The position numbers and the translations under genes are program-made. From Deltaproteobacteria bacterium GWA2_54_12 (lineage in GTDB: Bacteria; Desulfobacterota; GWC2-55-46), in NCBI GenBank assembly GCA_001795535.1, contig MGPK01000073.1, forward strand, positions 1 to 48,435: a DNA stretch of 48,435 nt, read 5' to 3'. The notes below the pieces were generated by a model that saw only the letters and a list, made by a program, of their open reading frames with translations, was not told the origin of the DNA and made no database searches. Shown in pieces: positions 37,305-45,989 of this stretch (position 1 is its first letter; every line of letters begins with the position of its first letter).

Positions 37305-40214
37305 CTAAAGCACCATCCTGGCGACGGCCTCGCTGAGTTCGTCTATGGAAAAAGGCTTCTTGAGCGACGGATTACCGATGGCTTCAAGAAATTCCTGCGT
37401 CTCTGAGCCCATGCTGTCGCCCGAGATGAAAATTATCTTTTTGAGCACGCCGGGGTTTATCTTCTCGACCTCCCTGTAAAAGCCCTTTCCCCCGAGCCCC
37501 GGCATTTTTATGTCGCTGATTATCAGGTCGTAACATGACTCGGAGATCTTCTTTAAAGCGTCCTCCGCGGAAGAGCATTTGTCCACCTCGAACCCGAACC
37601 CCGTGAGAGAGTCGGCCAGAAGGTCCAGTACTATTTCCTCGTCGTCAAGGACGAGCGCCCGCATGCCGTCCACGCTGACCCTTTTCTTGCGCTCTGACGC
37701 GCAACAGGCGTTAAAACTTAACGCATCCTCTTCCAAGACCGGCAGTTCCACTACAAAGGTAGTCCCTATCCTCGGCCTGCTTGAGGCGTATATGTTGCCG
37801 CCGTGCTCGTTTATTATCCCGTATGAGATGCTCAGGCCCAGGCCTGTGCCCTTGCCCACATCCTTGGTGGTGAAGAACGGGTCAAACAGCCTGTTCGCCA
37901 CTTCCTCGGAGAAGCCCTTGCCCGTGTCAGTTATGCTGACTACTATCTTACCCGCGGCAAACCTGCTCGCTATCTCTATCCTGCCGCTCGGCCCCTTTTC
38001 CCTGATAGCGTCGCTAGCGTTATTGATGAGGTTCAAAAAGACCTGCTGGATCTGGCTGGCGTCGACCATTGTGCCTGGGACGGCGGCCCCCAGATCGAGC
38101 ATAAGCTCTATATTGTCCATGCTGAGCTGGTAGGACCTGAACTCGACGCTATCCTTTATTATCCTATTGATGTCATCATACCTCTTCTCCGGCCTCTTCC
38201 ATCTTGCGAAGGTCAGGAGGTTCTCGATTATCTTCTTGCACCTGTGGGACGCGTCGTTTATCTTGCGCAGCTTGGAATCAGCGCTCTCGCCGAGCCTTTC
38301 CTCAAGGAGAAGCTCAGAAAAGCACATGATGCCGGTAAGGGGGTTATTGAGCTCGTGCGCCACGCCGGAGACGAGTTCGCCAAGCGAAGAAAGCTTGTCC
38401 GACTGGATGAGCTTTTGCGTAAGAAGCCTTTTTTCCGTGACATCCTGTATGTACACGACCGCGCTCCTCGGCTCAGAGCCCTCGCCCCCGGCCATGGGGT
38501 AAGACTGCCAGACCAGCACTTTGCCCTCCGGTGTCGTCATCTCCAGCTCGGCCGGGACGGTTGAGTCTATGGACTTCCTTATCGGGCAGCTCCCCTTCGG
38601 AGGGGGCACGGCTCCGAATACTTCGTATACTCCTCTTCCGGTGACTGACTGCTCGGTAAGGCCAGCGGTCTCGAGAAAATGCCTGTTCGCCTCAAGTATG
38701 GAATAATCGTAGCCAACCTGAAGCACATAATCGCGTATGCTGTCGTATATGAGGCGGAGCTTGTTTTTGGCGACCTTGAGCTCCTCTTCCTCCCGGGTAA
38801 TCGTCCTGTTGGCCTTCTGAAGCTCAAGGTTCTTGCGGTCGAGGTCCTCGTTAAGGAGCTTCAATTCCTCGTTGATGGCGTGCAGTTCCTCTGTCTGGCT
38901 CTGGGTCTCCTCATAGGCAATCTCTAATTCCTCGTTTGCCACCCTGAGGTTTTCATTGAGCCCTGCCAGCGCCTGCCCCTTCTGTTCGATCTCCTTGAGG
39001 TATTTCTCTTTTTCCATCTCCCTCAAGTTAACATCGTCCATCATCTTGTTGAAGCTTCCCGCCAGTACGGAAAGTTCGTCGCCCTTGCCGTTGTACCCGC
39101 CTAACTTCGAGAGGTCTATGCGGGCTTCAATGTCTCCGGAGCCGAAAGAGGTGAGCTTTTCCTTCAGTTCCTTCAGCGGCTTCGTAATCCTCCGGGCCGA
39201 TATGAGCGCGGCAAGTATCGAGAAAGTCAGGCCCAGCAGGGTCACGACCGCCACTGCCTTCTGGTTCCCCTTCTGTATTGCCCAGGTCCTCTCCTTTGAC
39301 AGCGCTACGTCAAGCGAACCTATGACGTTCCCCTTGTAGTCCTTTATGGGCTCGAACTTCGATATGAGGGTCAGCCCCTTTACGCTCCATTCGGCGTACG
39401 CGCTCTTGCCATCCCGAATAAGCGGCCTCACATCTCCTTCAACGCGCGTCCCGCGTAATGTCCCGCCTGCAGGGGCGGCCAGGTTAGTCGTTATCCTTCT
39501 CCCGCCCGCGGTTACGGTCGTGTAAAGTCCCGGGAGCTTGTATGATACCGTTTCAGGGACAAAATTGTCGTTGTTCAGGACATCAGCCGTCACAATGGCC
39601 CCTATGGCCGCCTGAGTGTAATCCAGCACAGGGGTGACAACGGTCAAGGCCAGCACGTCGACTTCAGCGGGCGAGCCCGTTCCGGCCGGAAGAGCTGACA
39701 TCTCCGCCACGGTGTTGCCTTCGAGCTTTATAACGTCCCGGGGGATTATCTCCGTTGAGACCTGCGGGGTCTTTGACTTCATAGCGTGCGGGACCAAGCC
39801 TCCCAGAAGGAGAGAGTCCCCGCTGAACTGGCTGTTGATCCTCGCGATCACGCGGCCGTTACCGTCGGTGACGGCCCATATGTCGACATAGGGCCTCATC
39901 TGGCTCCATTGAGTCATGACCTTCCGGAGGTACTCGGCGTCGCCTTTAGCGACCGCCTTTTTTATCTCTTCCATCGATGAGGCCTGCAGCATGCCGTAGC
40001 GCATCTGCTCGCCCCGGATAAAGTACTCGGTCCAGGCCGTCTTCATGCCGTTGGAGACCTCCGCGCGCGCGTGCTCCATCAACCTCGCGTCTATTATCCT
40101 GTAGGAGACGAAGGCAAGAAGCAGCATGGGCGCGAGCACGACCACGATAAAAATCGCCGTCAGCTTGAAGCCGACCGGCATGGACGAAAACAGCTTAAAA
40201 GGTGATCTTTCCAT
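37305..40214 (-). CDS. Cache-HAMP-PAS-HK-REC hybrid kinase
   Basis: A 969-residue membrane kinase. TM1 (~16-36) and TM2 (~325-342) bracket a large Cache-type periplasmic domain. HAMP (~345-400) leads into a coiled coil rich in Glu and Leu (~405-490), then PAS (~490-600), HisKA (His in LVSGVAHELNNPLTGIM), HATPase (NLINNASDAIREKG, DTGKGFSEE, GTGLGLSISYGI) and a C-terminal receiver with phospho-Asp in DLIISDIKMPG. Its ATG shares one base with the CheR stop (TAATG), so it is translated with CheR. It may report to a partner regulator through the REC domain. Confidence 0.9.
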   Translation of the reverse strand: MERSPFKLFSSMPVGFKLTAIFIVVVLAPMLLLAFVSYRIIDARLMEHARAEVSNGMKTAWTEYFIRGEQMRYGMLQASSMEEIKKAVAKGDAEYLRKVMTQWSQMRPYVDIWAVTDGNGRVIARINSQFSGDSLLLGGLVPHAMKSKTPQVSTEIIPRDVIKLEGNTVAEMSALPAGTGSPAEVDVLALTVVTPVLDYTQAAIGAIVTADVLNNDNFVPETVSYKLPGLYTTVTAGGRRITTNLAAPAGGTLRGTRVEGDVRPLIRDGKSAYAEWSVKGLTLISKFEPIKDYKGNVIGSLDVALSKERTWAIQKGNQKAVAVVTLLGLTFSILAALISARRITKPLKELKEKLTSFGSGDIEARIDLSKLGGYNGKGDELSVLAGSFNKMMDDVNLREMEKEKYLKEIEQKGQALAGLNENLRVANEELEIAYEETQSQTEELHAINEELKLLNEDLDRKNLELQKANRTITREEEELKVAKNKLRLIYDSIRDYVLQVGYDYSILEANRHFLETAGLTEQSVTGRGVYEVFGAVPPPKGSCPIRKSIDSTVPAELEMTTPEGKVLVWQSYPMAGGEGSEPRSAVVYIQDVTEKRLLTQKLIQSDKLSSLGELVSGVAHELNNPLTGIMCFSELLLEERLGESADSKLRKINDASHRCKKIIENLLTFARWKRPEKRYDDINRIIKDSVEFRSYQLSMDNIELMLDLGAAVPGTMVDASQIQQVFLNLINNASDAIREKGPSGRIEIASRFAAGKIVVSITDTGKGFSEEVANRLFDPFFTTKDVGKGTGLGLSISYGIINEHGGNIYASSRPRIGTTFVVELPVLEEDALSFNACCASERKKRVSVDGMRALVLDDEEIVLDLLADSLTGFGFEVDKCSSAEDALKKISESCYDLIISDIKMPGLGGKGFYREVEKINPGVLKKIIFISGDSMGSETQEFLEAIGNPSLKKPFSIDELSEAVARMVL

Positions 40215-41041
40215 TATCCTTTTTTCCTGAAGAGATTCAGGCCCTTGGCGACCTGGGTATATCCGGACAGATAAGACTGCGGCAGCACCTCAGCCTTGCC
40301 GAGCGCCAGGAGCCCGCCAGGCTTCAAGGCGTAATCGAGTTTCTGAAAGACTTTCTCCTGAAGTGGCTTGCCGAAATAGATGAACAGGTTTCTGCAAAGC
40401 ACCAGCTGCATGCCTGAAAGAGGCGTGCTCTGGACAATGTCCAGCGTGCCGAACTTGACGAGGTTTCTTACCGCGTACTTTACCTTGTGCGAGCCGTCTT
40501 TAGGAATGAAATAGAGTTCTTTCATGTCAGGCGAGACATTCAGCATCGACTCAGCCCTGTATGTGGCGCGCCTGGCCTGCTCGAGCGCCTCGGGGTCTAT
40601 GTCGGTCGCGAATACCTTTGCCTTGCCAAGGGCATCCATTCCAAGGCATTCAGAAAAGAGCATGGCAACGGAATAAGCCTCTTCGCCGCAGGCCGAGGCG
40701 CAGCTCCACGCCCTTACCGGGGTGCCGCAGAACTCGCCACGCAATATTTCCGCGATGGCCGCGAAGATCTCCGGCTCCCTGAAAAACTCGCTCACTTTTA
40801 TTGTTATGCTGGAGAACAGGCGCGAGTACTCGGCGGGGTCGTTTTCAAGAAGGCGCAGGTACTCGCTTATTGAAGAGCAGCCGCTGGCATGCAGCCTTTT
40901 GGATACCCTTCTTAATAGCGTCATTTTCTTGTAGCCGCGGAAGTCCCAGCCCCGTTCCGCATAGACCTTGTCGAGCAGAACAGGAAGGCCTTGCTCTGTC
41001 CGGGCGTTAGCCTCGTTGCGGAATCTTGAAAGAATATACAT
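40214..41041 (-). CDS. cheR: CheR-type protein-glutamate methyltransferase
   Basis: A 275-residue SAM-dependent methyltransferase of the CheR family. The N-terminal helical part has LLRRVSKRL and FREPEIF; the SAM site is AWSCASACGEEAYSVAM; VFATDIDPEALEQARR and LVLCRNLFIYF follow. It would methylate Glu side chains of receptor-like proteins. No CheB, CheA, CheW or receptor is near; the only partner is the hybrid kinase, translated from an overlapping start. This suggests a signalling pair rather than a classical chemotaxis system. A strong extended -10 promoter lies 33 nt upstream. Confidence 0.9.
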   Translation of the reverse strand: MYILSRFRNEANARTEQGLPVLLDKVYAERGWDFRGYKKMTLLRRVSKRLHASGCSSISEYLRLLENDPAEYSRLFSSITIKVSEFFREPEIFAAIAEILRGEFCGTPVRAWSCASACGEEAYSVAMLFSECLGMDALGKAKVFATDIDPEALEQARRATYRAESMLNVSPDMKELYFIPKDGSHKVKYAVRNLVKFGTLDIVQSTPLSGMQLVLCRNLFIYFGKPLQEKVFQKLDYALKPGGLLALGKAEVLPQSYLSGYTQVAKGLNLFRKKG

Positions 41042-41201: not shown

Positions 41202-44200
41202 ATGCTCAGGAACATGGAAATCTCGGGCCTCCTGAAAAGCGTGAAAGTAAATGTCCGGGCAAGGGACCACGAGGCGGTCCTGAGAGAGATGTTCACCGGG
41301 CTCCTCCCCGGAACCGGCGGACAGAAGGTCTCAAGGACCTTCCGCGACCTCGAAGCGCATGAGAGCTCGGAAGGCGCTCTGGCCGGCACCGGCGGAGCCA
41401 TATTCCACTGTCTCGCCGAAGAGGCGCAAAGCACGGTCATAGCGCTCGCGGTAACGAAAAAGGCCGTCTCCCGCCCCGGCGGCAAGGGTCCTGCCAGAGT
41501 CTTTTTCATTATCGTGTCGCCCATGAAGGAGAGCGGCACCCATATGCAGCTCCTCTCAAGGCTAGAGGCCCTTCTCCTTGACAGGGGTTTCACGCACGCG
41601 CTATTAGGGGCCTCGACCGATGAAGACGCGAGAAGGGTGGTCAAAGGGGCGGAAGGGTCGTCAAAAGCCCTGTATCTGCCCTTGGAAAGTGACGAAGTAC
41701 TCTCGGAACTTGCCACCTCGGAAAAGGGCCTAACCGAACAAGAAGCCGCCCGCAGGCTCGCTATGGCCGGGCCCAACACGATAAAACGGGTCAAGGGACG
41801 GCGGCTTCTGGCCGACCTGGCGAAAAACCTGTTCCTGAACCTTTTAGCGGCCCTGCTGTGGGCAGGCGGGCTCATGGCTTTCATAGCGGGAATGCCTGAG
41901 CTCGGCTGGGCCATTTTCCTGGTCATAGTCATTAACGCGGCTTTCAGCTTCATACAGGAGTACAAGGCCGAAAGAGCTGTCGAGGCCCTTACAAAGCTCC
42001 TTCCCTTGAGAGTCAAAGCCATACGCGGCGGGAAAGAGGCCGATATCGACGCGACAGGGCTCGTGCCTGGCGACCTCATAAAATTATCTGAAGGCGCCAG
42101 CATACCGGCTGACGGCAGGCTCATCTCGGCTGATGATCTGAAGGTCGACAACTCCGCACTTACGGGAGAGTCAAGGCCCGTCTGGAAGACGGCGGGAGCT
42201 ATAGAAGCGGGGCGTGAGTTCAACTGGACCGAGATACCGAACATGGCCTTTGCCGGGACAAGCGTGGCTTCCGGCACAGGCACGATGGTCGTCAGCGCAA
42301 CCGGCATGGACACCGAGATAGGAAGGCTCGCCTCCCTGACGCAGGCCATAAGGAGCGAGACAAGCCCGCTTCAGAAGGAGATATCCCGCCTCACAAAGAC
42401 CGTAACGCTCATTGCCGTCAGCCTGGGTGTTGTTTTTTTCCTCCTCGGCTGGCAACTGGCCGGACTCACCATGGCTGGGAGCTTCATCTTCGCCATAGGG
42501 ATAATCGTCGCGAATGTGCCTGAAGGGCTCCTGCCGACCGTCTCCCTTTCGCTCGCGATGGGCGTACAGAGGATGGCCAGGCAGAGGGCCATCGTAAAAA
42601 AACTCTCGTCAGTCGAAACGCTCGGATCGGCTACAGTTATATGCACCGACAAGACAGGCACTCTCACCGAGAACAGGATGTCCGTGAGGGAGGTCTACTC
42701 AAACGGCAGGACCTTCAGCGTGAAGGGTGAGGGATATGCTCCTGAAGGCTCGTTTCATTATGAAGGCAGGGACCTTGGCGGAGACGACTTTACGGCCGCC
42801 GGGATAAGGGAGCTGCTGGAGATCACGGCCCTGTGCAACAACGCCCGCCTCATTGCAGCAAAAACTCCTTCAGACGAATGGACCATATCCGGCGACCCCA
42901 CCGAAGGCGCTCTCCTCACGGCCGCCGCCAGGGCCGGTGTGGACCTCGACGGGCTCGTGAAAGCCAACCCGCGATCCGCCCACATCCCTTTCGAGAGGAT
43001 CAGAAAGAGGATGGCGACCATTCACGAGAACGGGATGGGCCTTGGCGACATGAAGAGGGTCGCCCTTGTGAAAGGCGCGCCAAAAGAGGTGCTGTCGCGC
43101 TGCGATTATCTCCGCCTCGACGGAAAGGCCGTCCCGCTTACGGACCAGCTTAGAGCCGGGATACTTTCATGGAACGACTCAATGGCGGCCAAAGGGCTCC
43201 GCGTCCTTGCGGCGGCCTTCAGGGGCATTGAAGAAGAAGGCCCTTATAACGCCGACAAGGTTGAAAAAGGGCTCACCTTCGCGGGCCTTGTTGCCATGCA
43301 GGACCCGTTGAGGCCGGAGGTAAGGAAAGCCGTCGAAGAATGCGGGAGCGCCGGTATAAAAGTAATAATGATGACCGGAGACTACGGCATAACGGCCCGT
43401 GCCATAGCGAACGAGGCCGGCATAGCCGCTGGCCGTGTTATAACCGGTGAAGAACTCTCCAGGACAAGCGACAGGGAATTGAGGGAAGCGCTCAAGGAGG
43501 CGGTCATTTTCGCGAGGGTAGCCCCGCAGGACAAGCTCCGGGTTGTGGCGGCCCTGCAGGACAACGGCGAGACGGTAGCCGTAACCGGAGACGGAGTCAA
43601 CGACGCCCCTGCCCTCAAGAAGGCAGACATAGGTATAGCCATGGGCCTTCGCGGGAGCGACGTGGCAAAGGAATCCGCGGAAATAATACTGACTGACGAC
43701 AACTTCGCCTCTATCGTGGAAGCGGTGCGCGAAGGGCGTGCCGTCTATTCGAACATCAGGAAATTCGTCACCTATATCTTCGCCAGCAATGTCCCGGAGA
43801 TAATCCCGTTCATAGCCTTTGTCCTTTTTAAGATTCCCCTGCCGCTCACTATAATGCAGATACTCGCCATAGACCTTGGCACGGATGTCCTTCCGGCCCT
43901 CGGGCTCGGCACTGAGCCGCCTGAAGAAGGCATAATGAAAGAGCCGCCAAGACCAAAAGGGGCAAAGCTCCTCGACTTCAAGACCCTGTCCAGAGCCTAC
44001 CTTTTTCTGGGCCTTATAGAGGCAACTTTGGCAATGTCCGCCTTCTTTTTCCTCTACTGGATGAGGGGCTGGACGCCGGGCGAACCACTGGCTGATTCGG
44101 GGGCCGTATACATGGCCGCCACCACCATGACCTTCGCGGCGATAGTGGCGGCCCAGATAGGGAATGTCATGGCGTGCAGGACTTCAAAAGAGTCCGTCCT

Positions 44201-44417
44201 CAAGGCCGGGCTGTTCAAAAACCGCCTTATCCTGGCGGGCATAGCGCTTGAAATGGCGCTCGTGCTCGTACTTACCTATACGCCGCTCCGCAAAGTCTTC
44301 AACCTCCACCCTTTGAGGCCGGTTGAATGGGCTTTTCTCCTGTCGTTCCCTTTCATCATATTTTTAGCCGAGGAAGGCAGGAAGGCTTTCATGAGGCGCA
44401 AGGTTCAAAAGTCTTGA
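41202..44417 (+). CDS. P-type cation ATPase with N-terminal PTS EIIA-like domain
   Basis: A 1071-residue membrane pump. Residues ~1-155 look like a PTS EIIA (type 2/nitrogen) domain: GTGGAIFHC at 64-70, where His69 aligns with the phospho-His of EIIA-Ntr (GIAIPH), and VFFIIVSPMKESGTHMQLLSRLEALLLD aligns with the following strand and helix. Then comes a P2-type ATPase: TGES (321-324), VPEGL (439-443), phosphorylation site DKTGT with D483, KGAP, GDGVNDAPALK, and about ten membrane segments. VANVPEGLLPTVSLSLA suggests a Ca2+ or Na+-type pump. Transport ion is unknown. The ATG at 41214 is an alternative start. First gene of an operon with dsrE-like, tusA and udp. Confidence 0.88.
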   Translation: MLRNMEISGLLKSVKVNVRARDHEAVLREMFTGLLPGTGGQKVSRTFRDLEAHESSEGALAGTGGAIFHCLAEEAQSTVIALAVTKKAVSRPGGKGPARVFFIIVSPMKESGTHMQLLSRLEALLLDRGFTHALLGASTDEDARRVVKGAEGSSKALYLPLESDEVLSELATSEKGLTEQEAARRLAMAGPNTIKRVKGRRLLADLAKNLFLNLLAALLWAGGLMAFIAGMPELGWAIFLVIVINAAFSFIQEYKAERAVEALTKLLPLRVKAIRGGKEADIDATGLVPGDLIKLSEGASIPADGRLISADDLKVDNSALTGESRPVWKTAGAIEAGREFNWTEIPNMAFAGTSVASGTGTMVVSATGMDTEIGRLASLTQAIRSETSPLQKEISRLTKTVTLIAVSLGVVFFLLGWQLAGLTMAGSFIFAIGIIVANVPEGLLPTVSLSLAMGVQRMARQRAIVKKLSSVETLGSATVICTDKTGTLTENRMSVREVYSNGRTFSVKGEGYAPEGSFHYEGRDLGGDDFTAAGIRELLEITALCNNARLIAAKTPSDEWTISGDPTEGALLTAAARAGVDLDGLVKANPRSAHIPFERIRKRMATIHENGMGLGDMKRVALVKGAPKEVLSRCDYLRLDGKAVPLTDQLRAGILSWNDSMAAKGLRVLAAAFRGIEEEGPYNADKVEKGLTFAGLVAMQDPLRPEVRKAVEECGSAGIKVIMMTGDYGITARAIANEAGIAAGRVITGEELSRTSDRELREALKEAVIFARVAPQDKLRVVAALQDNGETVAVTGDGVNDAPALKKADIGIAMGLRGSDVAKESAEIILTDDNFASIVEAVREGRAVYSNIRKFVTYIFASNVPEIIPFIAFVLFKIPLPLTIMQILAIDLGTDVLPALGLGTEPPEEGIMKEPPRPKGAKLLDFKTLSRAYLFLGLIEATLAMSAFFFLYWMRGWTPGEPLADSGAVYMAATTMTFAAIVAAQIGNVMACRTSKESVLKAGLFKNRLILAGIALEMALVLVLTYTPLRKVFNLHPLRPVEWAFLLSFPFIIFLAEEGRKAFMRRKVQKS

Positions 44418-44458
44418 ACAGATTCGTGCCAGTAGGATATTATAAAAGGATGAATAAA

Positions 44459-44959
44459 ATGGAGAGGGATATGCAACAGCCTAAAAAAACTCCGGTCACG
44501 ATAGTGCTCTTCAGCGGGGAGCTGGACAAGGCAATGGCCGCCTTTGTCATAGCCACAGCCGCCGCCTCGATGGGCATGCCGGTGAACATCTTTTTCACCT
44601 TCTGGGGGCTCAATGTAATTAAAAAGAAGGGCGGCCTGATTAAGGGGCAGAACTGGATGCAGAAGATGCTCAATGTGGTCAATTACGGACATGCCAGAAA
44701 GCTCGCCCTCTCAAAGCTCAACATGATGGGCATGGGCCCTGTCATGCTCAAGGAGATGATGGGGAAAAAACGCGTCCCCTCGCTCGACGAGTTCATAAAG
44801 ATGGCCAAAGCCATGGGCGTGAAGTTCTATCCGTGCGAGATGAGCATGACCGTCATGGGGCTTAAAAAAGAGGACTTCATAGACGAGTGCGACGATGTCA
44901 TCGGGGCCGTCAGCTATCTTTCAGTCGCGAAAGATTCCAACATAAACCTGTTCATATGA
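44459..44959 (+). CDS. DsrE/DsrF-like family protein
   Basis: A 166-residue member of the DsrE/DrsE-like group, related to sulfur carrier proteins. Typical motifs are VTIVLFSGELDKAMAAFVIA, NIFFTFWGLNVI, and KFYPCEMSMTVMGLKKEDFID with a single Cys that may carry sulfur. The frame opens at 44327 inside the ATPase gene. ATGs at 44450, 44459 and 44471 compete; AAAAGGA eight bases before 44459 favours it. The gene precedes tusA by 9 bp, matching the known pairing of DsrE-like and TusA proteins in sulfur relay. Confidence 0.86.
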   Translation: MERDMQQPKKTPVTIVLFSGELDKAMAAFVIATAAASMGMPVNIFFTFWGLNVIKKKGGLIKGQNWMQKMLNVVNYGHARKLALSKLNMMGMGPVMLKEMMGKKRVPSLDEFIKMAKAMGVKFYPCEMSMTVMGLKKEDFIDECDDVIGAVSYLSVAKDSNINLFI

Positions 44960-44968
44960 GGTAAATAG

Positions 44969-45205
44969 ATGAGCCAGTTCACAGCCGACAAAACGCTCGA
45001 TGCCAGGGGCCTGTCCTGCCCAATGCCCTCGGTCAAAACCGCTCTCGCCCTCGAGGCGATGGGCCAGGGCCAGGTGCTGCTGATATTGACCGACGACCCG
45101 GTCTCCAGAAGGGATTTGCCAGTTTGGGCCGAGTCCACCGGCAACACGATTCTGGGCCTCGAGGAAGAAGGGGCCACAATAAAGATATTCCTCAAAAAGG
45201 GGTAG
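44969..45205 (+). CDS. tusA: TusA family sulfur carrier
   Basis: A 78-residue sulfurtransferase with the TusA signature LDARGLSCPMP, where C17 in the CPxP motif takes up persulfide sulfur. The rest (VLLILTDDPVSRRDLPVWAESTG) is normal for the family. In enteric bacteria TusA passes sulfur to the 2-thiouridine pathway of tRNA; in sulfur-metabolising bacteria it works with DsrE-type proteins. Here it lies 9 bp after a DsrE-like gene and 10 bp before udp, so it belongs to one operon. The exact client is not visible. Confidence 0.93.
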   Translation: MSQFTADKTLDARGLSCPMPSVKTALALEAMGQGQVLLILTDDPVSRRDLPVWAESTGNTILGLEEEGATIKIFLKKG

Positions 45206-45215
45206 GCAAGCACCC

Positions 45216-45989
45216 ATGGGAAAAGTCTACCACCTCGACCTCGAAAAAAAGGACATACAAGGCGCTGAGCTTGTGCTCATGCCCGGAGACCCGGGACGAA
45301 GCCCGCTTTTGGCCAGAGCCATAGCAGATGCCTACGGCTCAAAGTCCGACACGATAGCCTCGAAACGAGAGTTCACGACCTGCCTCACCGAAGTCATGGG
45401 TAAAAAGGTCCTCGTAACCTCGACCGGCATTGGCGGGCCTTCAACTTCGATAGCCGTAGACGAGCTTGCCCAGCTCGGCGTCAAGACCTTCATAAGGGTC
45501 GGCACGACCGGCGCGATTCAGGATAACATCCTCGACGGCGACTGCGTAATCACTACAGCGGCCGTGCGCCTGGACGGCGCTTCGACTCACTACGCCCCGC
45601 TCGAGTACCCGGCTGTCGCCTCGTTCAGCGTGGTCTCGGCCCTCGTCGAGGGCGCGAAAAAATCCGGAGTAAAATTCCATCTGGGCATCACCGCCTCTTC
45701 AGACACCTTCTACCCCGGCGAAGAGCGGACCGACGCCTTCATGGAATACAAACTCAGAAGGTTCCGGGGCGCGACCGAGGAATGGCGCGCCCTCAATGTA
45801 TTGAACTACGAGATGGAAGCCGCGACGCTCCTCACGATGACTTCGGCTTTTGGCTCAAGGGGCGGGTGCGTAACAGGGGTCGTGAACAGGGGCTCTACCG
45901 GCAGGATAACCGCTGAAACATTGAACGCGGGCCAGGCGAGCGCAATAAAACTGGCTGTGGCGGCAATTCCATTCCTTGTGCAGGATTAA
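45216..45989 (+). CDS. udp: Uridine phosphorylase
   Basis: A 257-residue nucleoside phosphorylase (NP-I family) that splits uridine into uracil and ribose-1-phosphate. It shares long blocks with E. coli Udp: FTTCLTEV, TSTGIGGPSTSIAVDELAQLG, RVGTTGAIQ, ITASSDTFYPGEERTDAF and LNYEMEAATLLTM. The ATG lies 10 bp after tusA. It closes the operon. Linking a uridine-salvage enzyme to sulfur carriers is odd and might relate to thiolated uridines. Repeat R3 begins 11 bp after its stop, between udp and the convergent phosphoesterase gene. Confidence 0.95.
   Translation: MGKVYHLDLEKKDIQGAELVLMPGDPGRSPLLARAIADAYGSKSDTIASKREFTTCLTEVMGKKVLVTSTGIGGPSTSIAVDELAQLGVKTFIRVGTTGAIQDNILDGDCVITTAAVRLDGASTHYAPLEYPAVASFSVVSALVEGAKKSGVKFHLGITASSDTFYPGEERTDAFMEYKLRRFRGATEEWRALNVLNYEMEAATLLTMTSAFGSRGGCVTGVVNRGSTGRITAETLNAGQASAIKLAVAAIPFLVQD

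Follow-up and report, generated by a model that had tools for sequence, protein, structure and literature searches.

The gene at 41202-44417 (+) of the window (the whole stretch of 48,435 nucleotides that we analysed, from Deltaproteobacteria bacterium GWA2_54_12) codes for a 1071-aa P-type ATPase that carries an EIIA domain of the EIIA-Ntr type at its N-terminus. P-type ATPases are present in all 63 genomes of the class, and about half of these genomes have the EIIA-pump fusion. Our leading reading is that the fusion is a lineage-conserved form of PTS-Ntr control of cation transport. The gene is laid out as follows.

41202-41645 (+): EIIA-Ntr-type domain, residues 1-148 (Pfam PTS_EIIA_2; fold match to 1a6j, Z 18.7); start possibly at 41214
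41358-41363 (+): His53-Glu54, invariant, with His53 at the place of the phosphate-binding Arg of canonical EIIA
41403-41408 (+): Phe68-His69, counterpart of the EIIA Pro-His phospho-acceptor site
41541-41543 (+): His114, counterpart of the second EIIA histidine (H120 in E. coli EIIA-Ntr)
41565-41567 (+): Glu122, invariant in the class fusions and lining the active-site His (position A121 of NM-IIANtr; PMC1201152)
41646-41687 (+): short linker, residues 149-162, placed before the cation-ATPase N-terminal region and the actuator domain
41688-44414 (+): P2-type ATPase core, Na,K-ATPase-alpha-like (548 bits to 2zxe; ion-site motifs)

The Pfam PTS_EIIA_2 model matches residues 13-148 with an E value of 1.1e-11 in the whole protein and with 50.3 bits when the domain is scored alone (its scores of 45-50 bits lie above the curated cut-off of 27), and it is followed without a gap by Cation_ATPase_N (163-225), E1-E2_ATPase, Hydrolase, and Cation_ATPase_C. 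Met5 is almost invariant among relatives, which makes 41214 a possible true start; Pro160-Leu161 of the linker is invariant. PDB sequence matches of the domain are EIIA-Ntr proteins (2a0j and 1a6j), and an AlphaFold2 model of residues 5-175, built from 26 relatives (pLDDT 81.6, pTM 0.81), aligns to the EIIA-Ntr structures 1a6j, 3urr, and 2a0j with VIA-align Z scores of 18.7-17.5 (for E. coli EIIA-Ntr 1a6j, Z 18.7 and rmsd 2.3 Å over 142 residues). A sequence-only reading of this DNA had likened the first ~155 residues to EIIA-Ntr and proposed structure prediction as the check; Pfam, the PDB sequence matches, and the predicted fold all bear the likeness out. The domain model also matches SLC4 cytoplasmic domains, with Z 16.6 for BTR1 and about 12 for AE2 and band 3. 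The full-length AlphaFold model (pLDDT 67.7, pTM 0.53) is too weak for reading the contact between the EIIA and actuator domains. By its Pfam score, its EIIA-Ntr/Mtl fold, and its phospho-acceptor His (with the preceding Pro replaced by Phe), the domain belongs to the PTS EIIA-2 (fructose/mannitol/Ntr) superfamily. Two marks of canonical PtsN are missing from it: the NCBIfam nitro_reg_IIA model (TIGR01419) gives the domain 18.4 bits against a cut-off of 138.7, and the place of the active-site Arg (R57 in E. coli) is taken by His53.

The active site was compared between 29 aligned class fusions and 48 standalone PtsN proteins; L027 and L028 were left out of the 29, their EIIA domains being incomplete in frame (L027 lacks part of the domain, yet keeps His53, His69, and His114). 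His69, in the motif GAIFHC, had been put forward as the phospho-His position, and it lines up with the phospho-His in the PtsN of this genome; its loss in most homologues of the same architecture would have told against the proposal, and we find His69 in 29/29 fusions, with the equivalent His in 48/48 PtsN. His114 likewise never varies, in the aligned fusions or in PtsN. The residues around these histidines are different: position 53 is His in every fusion and Arg in every PtsN, position 68 is Phe (29/29) rather than Pro (48/48), and position 122 is Glu in all 29 fusions and Ser (45) or Ala (3) in PtsN. An EIIA Gly is replaced by Leu60 in the class fusions, and the second residue past His69 is Leu, Phe, or Ile where EIIA has Lys/Arg. 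In canonical proteins the Arg binds a phosphate-like sulphate ion and is described as conserved in all EIIA-Ntr and EIIA-Mtl, and in EIIA-Ntr structures the Ser/Ala counterpart of Glu122 packs beside the active-site His (PMC1201152). Positions lining the active site are invariant in 5/9 cases, compared with 9/136 elsewhere in the domain (Fisher p 4e-4); pairwise identity of the EIIA domain among the class fusions averages 48% (minimum 29%), below the 70% mean of the pump core (residues 163-400). Since the lining positions are more often invariant and yet hold different residues, we regard the site as strongly constrained, though not canonical. With the Arg changed to His53, the basic residue after His69 lost, and Glu122 gained, phosphorylatability of His69 is not to be assumed.

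The core following the linker carries the P-type domain set with the DKTGT, TGES, and GDGVND motifs of P2-type pumps, and D483-K484-T485-G486-T487, T321-G322-E323, and G796-D797-G798-V799-N800-D801 are invariant. Its best PDB match is the Na,K-ATPase alpha subunit 2zxe (548 bits), with the bacterial Ca pump LMCA1 at 478 bits, and its ion-site motifs are VANVPEG, SNVPE, and IDLGTD. Equivalents of the P2C residues N324, E327, S775, N776, E779, D804, and D808 are all present, as N438 and E441 (TM4), S862, N863, and E866 (TM5), and D891 and D895 (TM6). The TM8 residue Asp926 of Na+ site III is absent, with Asn988 in its place in 25/25 class rows that have a letter there. NCBIfam models do not assign the core: the Na,K model ATPase-IIC_X-K (TIGR01106) gives 617.7 bits against a cut-off of 946.1, level with the PMR1-type Ca model at 618.8, which is also below its cut-off. 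Of 11 unfused paralogues, nine carry Asn where Na,K-ATPase has D804, as is the case in Ca pumps. Judged by these residues, the pump is one with a Na,K-ATPase-like ion site, unlike its Ca-type paralogues, and our best guess is that the transported ion would be a monovalent cation. All EIIA-bearing pumps examined fall on the Na,K-like branch.

EI and HPr genes are absent from the window, as had been remarked from the sequence, and both lie on another contig (C11) of the same genome, in the order rpoN-hpf-ptsN-hprK-rapZ-EIIA(Man)-EIIB(sorbose)-HPr-EI-metK. The genome holds a complete regulatory PTS, with EI, HPr, HprK, a normal ptsN, EIIA-Man, and a sorbose-type EIIB, and the host HPr keeps its His. 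The EIIA-Man and sorbose-type EIIB genes sit beside HPr-EI in this PTS cluster (G000:C11, L038:9513-10585). Among the class genomes, EI is found in 57/62 and HPr in 56/62, and HPr is also found in 4/4 out-of-class genomes with a fusion. In the main exception, G012, EI and HPr were not found, and ptsN, HprK, and metK are missing too; these three share the EI/HPr block in the window's genome, and loss of the entire block, including metK, probably reflects an assembly or binning gap. Absence from G052 says little, because its ptsN-hprK contig ends near the cluster.

The full-length class fusions are 56-84% identical to the window protein and occur in a lineage of uncultured groundwater bacteria; the frame is open across the junction in about 28 genomes, on contigs some of which span 210-397 kb. 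Outside the class, fusions occur in at least 4 of 395 phylum genomes sampled, one of which (G269) is a single 3.28-Mb contig, and Pfam confirms the EIIA domain in all three out-of-class fusions scanned (L124, L126, and L127). A contig scan with one peptide pattern gave matches only in this lineage, with a pattern that would miss fusions with a canonical site. Other EIIA-like matches fall within open reading frames that are 340-750 aa long (G232:C95, G190:C3, G375:C78, and G320:C219), and EIIA may be fused to other proteins too in the phylum.

In a tree of the pump core, all the fusions form one group (support 89/80), apart from the other P2 ATPases of the class and adjoining two pumps from the window's own family that lack the fusion. 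These two, L033 and L137 (in G035 and G034), are Na,K-like pumps without the EIIA domain, against which the role of the domain can naturally be compared. In the pump tree, the out-of-class fusion L124 branches as sister to the class fusions (98/93); it has canonical EIIA residues (RE...PHAR...H), and in the EIIA-domain tree it groups with PtsN. The simplest reading would be that the pump first had a normal EIIA whose site was rebuilt later; domain replacement in L124 may be an alternative to retention of the old site. L124 (4518-7733; G121:C77) shares its contig with HPr and HprK, at a distance of about 30 kb. A second, divergent group of fusions (L125, L126, and L127, in G247, G349, and G269) has an ILHN site without the Arg and a deletion in the loop preceding the phospho-His; its members have both His69 and His114, carry one more His upstream of the site, and lack Glu122.

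Among the loci compared, no PTS gene is a conserved neighbour of the fusion, and there is no conserved partner gene beyond the window's family. Beside the pump gene in the window (37305-41041) are a divergent CheR methyltransferase gene and a Cache-PAS hybrid histidine kinase gene with a receiver domain, an arrangement kept in six genomes of the family, and after the pump gene (44396-45989) are a DsrE/DsrF-like gene and a nucleoside phosphorylase gene, also in six family genomes. None of the compared loci outside the window's family has these neighbours.

The fused domain suggests direct control of the pump, either by a metabolic phosphate relay or by a ligand at the altered site. We tentatively propose, at a little short of even chances, that HPr~P phosphorylates His69 and that the state of the domain gates the Na,K-like pump. 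Regulatory-PTS HPr~P would pass its phosphate to His69, the phosphorylated and free forms of the domain would bear differently on the nearby actuator domain, and PEP/carbon status would thereby reach pump activity through the state of His69; the fused domain would then be a covalent version of the control that free PtsN has over K+ transporters. The K+/H+ antiporter YcgO is directly inhibited by unphosphorylated PtsN (PMC11808508), TrkA and KdpD are under PtsN control (reviewed in PMC13104625), and regulation of eukaryotic P2C pumps has been linked to their N-termini (PMC10654040). The sequence-only reading had drawn the analogy to K+ transport, and the Na,K-ATPase-like ion-site residues strengthen that analogy. 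Its idea that phosphotransfer could gate the pump directly fared less evenly: the fold and the conservation of His69 speak for it, but it had missed the change of Arg to His53, the lost basic residue, and the added Glu122. Also favouring phospho-gating are the retention of His69 and His114 in 29/29 fusions although the domain averages 48% identity, the excess of invariant positions lining the site, the presence of EI, HPr, HprK, and PtsN in the host, the wide occurrence of EI and HPr in the class, HPr in the four out-of-class genomes with a fusion, and the canonical site of L124; against it are the loss of the phosphate-binding Arg, of the Pro before His69, and of the later Lys/Arg, and the gain of Glu122, changes that could abolish transfer from HPr, and also the lack of any PTS gene conserved beside the fusion. 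On balance direct phosphotransfer gating is plausible. We regard as established the domain and its fold, the conservation of both histidines, the constrained site, the lineage-wide fusion, the presence of EI and HPr alongside it in these genomes, and the Na,K-like residues. That His69 is phosphorylated, by which donor, which ion is pumped, which way the effect goes, and that the domain touches the actuator domain are inferences.

The same active-site changes can be read differently. The EIIA site may have been turned into a sensor of a metal ion or other ligand, in which His53, His69, Glu122, and perhaps His114 would form the binding site for a divalent metal or an anion, and gating would proceed without phosphorylation; we hold this to be a serious rival, if on the unlikely side. 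His53 and Glu122 are fixed in all 29 fusions and absent from the 48 PtsN, and in solved EIIA-Ntr structures the two positions border the active-site His, but the equivalent of His114 is directed away from the site there (PMC1201152). The distant fusions L125-L127 pull both ways, having His69, His114, and an extra upstream His, but no Glu122 and an unsure alignment of that His. More broadly, the site, in which Arg has become His53 and Ser has become Glu122 while His69 and His114 persist, could have been rebuilt into a new sensor, serving a metal, another small ligand, or a changed phospho-chemistry, that directly gates a bacterial Na,K-type pump; to this we give a minority chance.

A domain that has given up catalysis altogether, and acts as a regulatory or docking module with the EIIA fold as in SLC4 proteins, its partner being HPr, PtsN, or another copy of the pump and its conserved residues forming the interface, seems to us a serious but unlikely alternative: SLC4 cytoplasmic domains do share the fold (as the BTR1 match attests) and canonical EIIA chemistry is partly gone, but both EIIA histidines are invariant while the rest of the domain falls to 29% identity. 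It is highly improbable that the fusion is a relic that does nothing to regulate the pump, or an artefact of annotation or assembly; relatives L033 and L137 have the pump without the domain, and L027 has lost part of it in frame, but the frame is open in so many genomes, including the single-contig one, and the EIIA active site is constrained. We reject an assembly artefact in particular, given the recurrence in many genomes, one a single contig.

Phospho-gating by HPr, if true, would tie carbon and energy status to a primary ion pump within one polypeptide. PTS-Ntr control of K+ transport turns up repeatedly, but its logic is not clear (reviewed in PMC13104625), and what Na,K-type pumps do in prokaryotes is still to be settled, a question that has been raised for archaea (PMC10654040); the fusion makes the link between PTS and ion transport testable in one protein with one histidine mutant. 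We found no description of an EIIA domain on a P-type ATPase in the literature searched, and the words EIIA and PTS are absent from a 2023 review of P-type ATPases. The parts are of known kinds, and the combination and the rebuilt site appear to be new. SLC4 cytoplasmic domains (band 3, AE2, and BTR1) are similar in being EIIA-like cytoplasmic regulatory domains of ion transporters, but belong to eukaryotic secondary transporters and are not known to use a phospho-His. The P2C ATPases (Na,K-ATPase alpha and archaeal relatives) share the TM4 N-V-P-E-G, TM5 S-N-x-P-E, and TM6 D-L-G-T-D motifs with the core, which differs in having Asn988 for the TM8 Asp926 and in its N-terminal EIIA domain. PtsN / EIIA-Ntr (E. 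coli 1A6J and N. meningitidis 2A0J) has the same fold, phospho-acceptor His, and second His, whereas here the domain is fused to a pump, with Arg57 replaced by His, Pro by Phe, and Lys/Arg by a hydrophobic residue, and with an extra Glu. A functional parallel is the action of E. coli PtsN on YcgO, TrkA, and KdpD, in which an EIIA-Ntr protein likewise governs monovalent-cation transport, and does so by direct contact (PMC11808508, PMC13104625); there, however, PtsN is a separate protein whose targets are not P-type pumps, whereas here the link is covalent.
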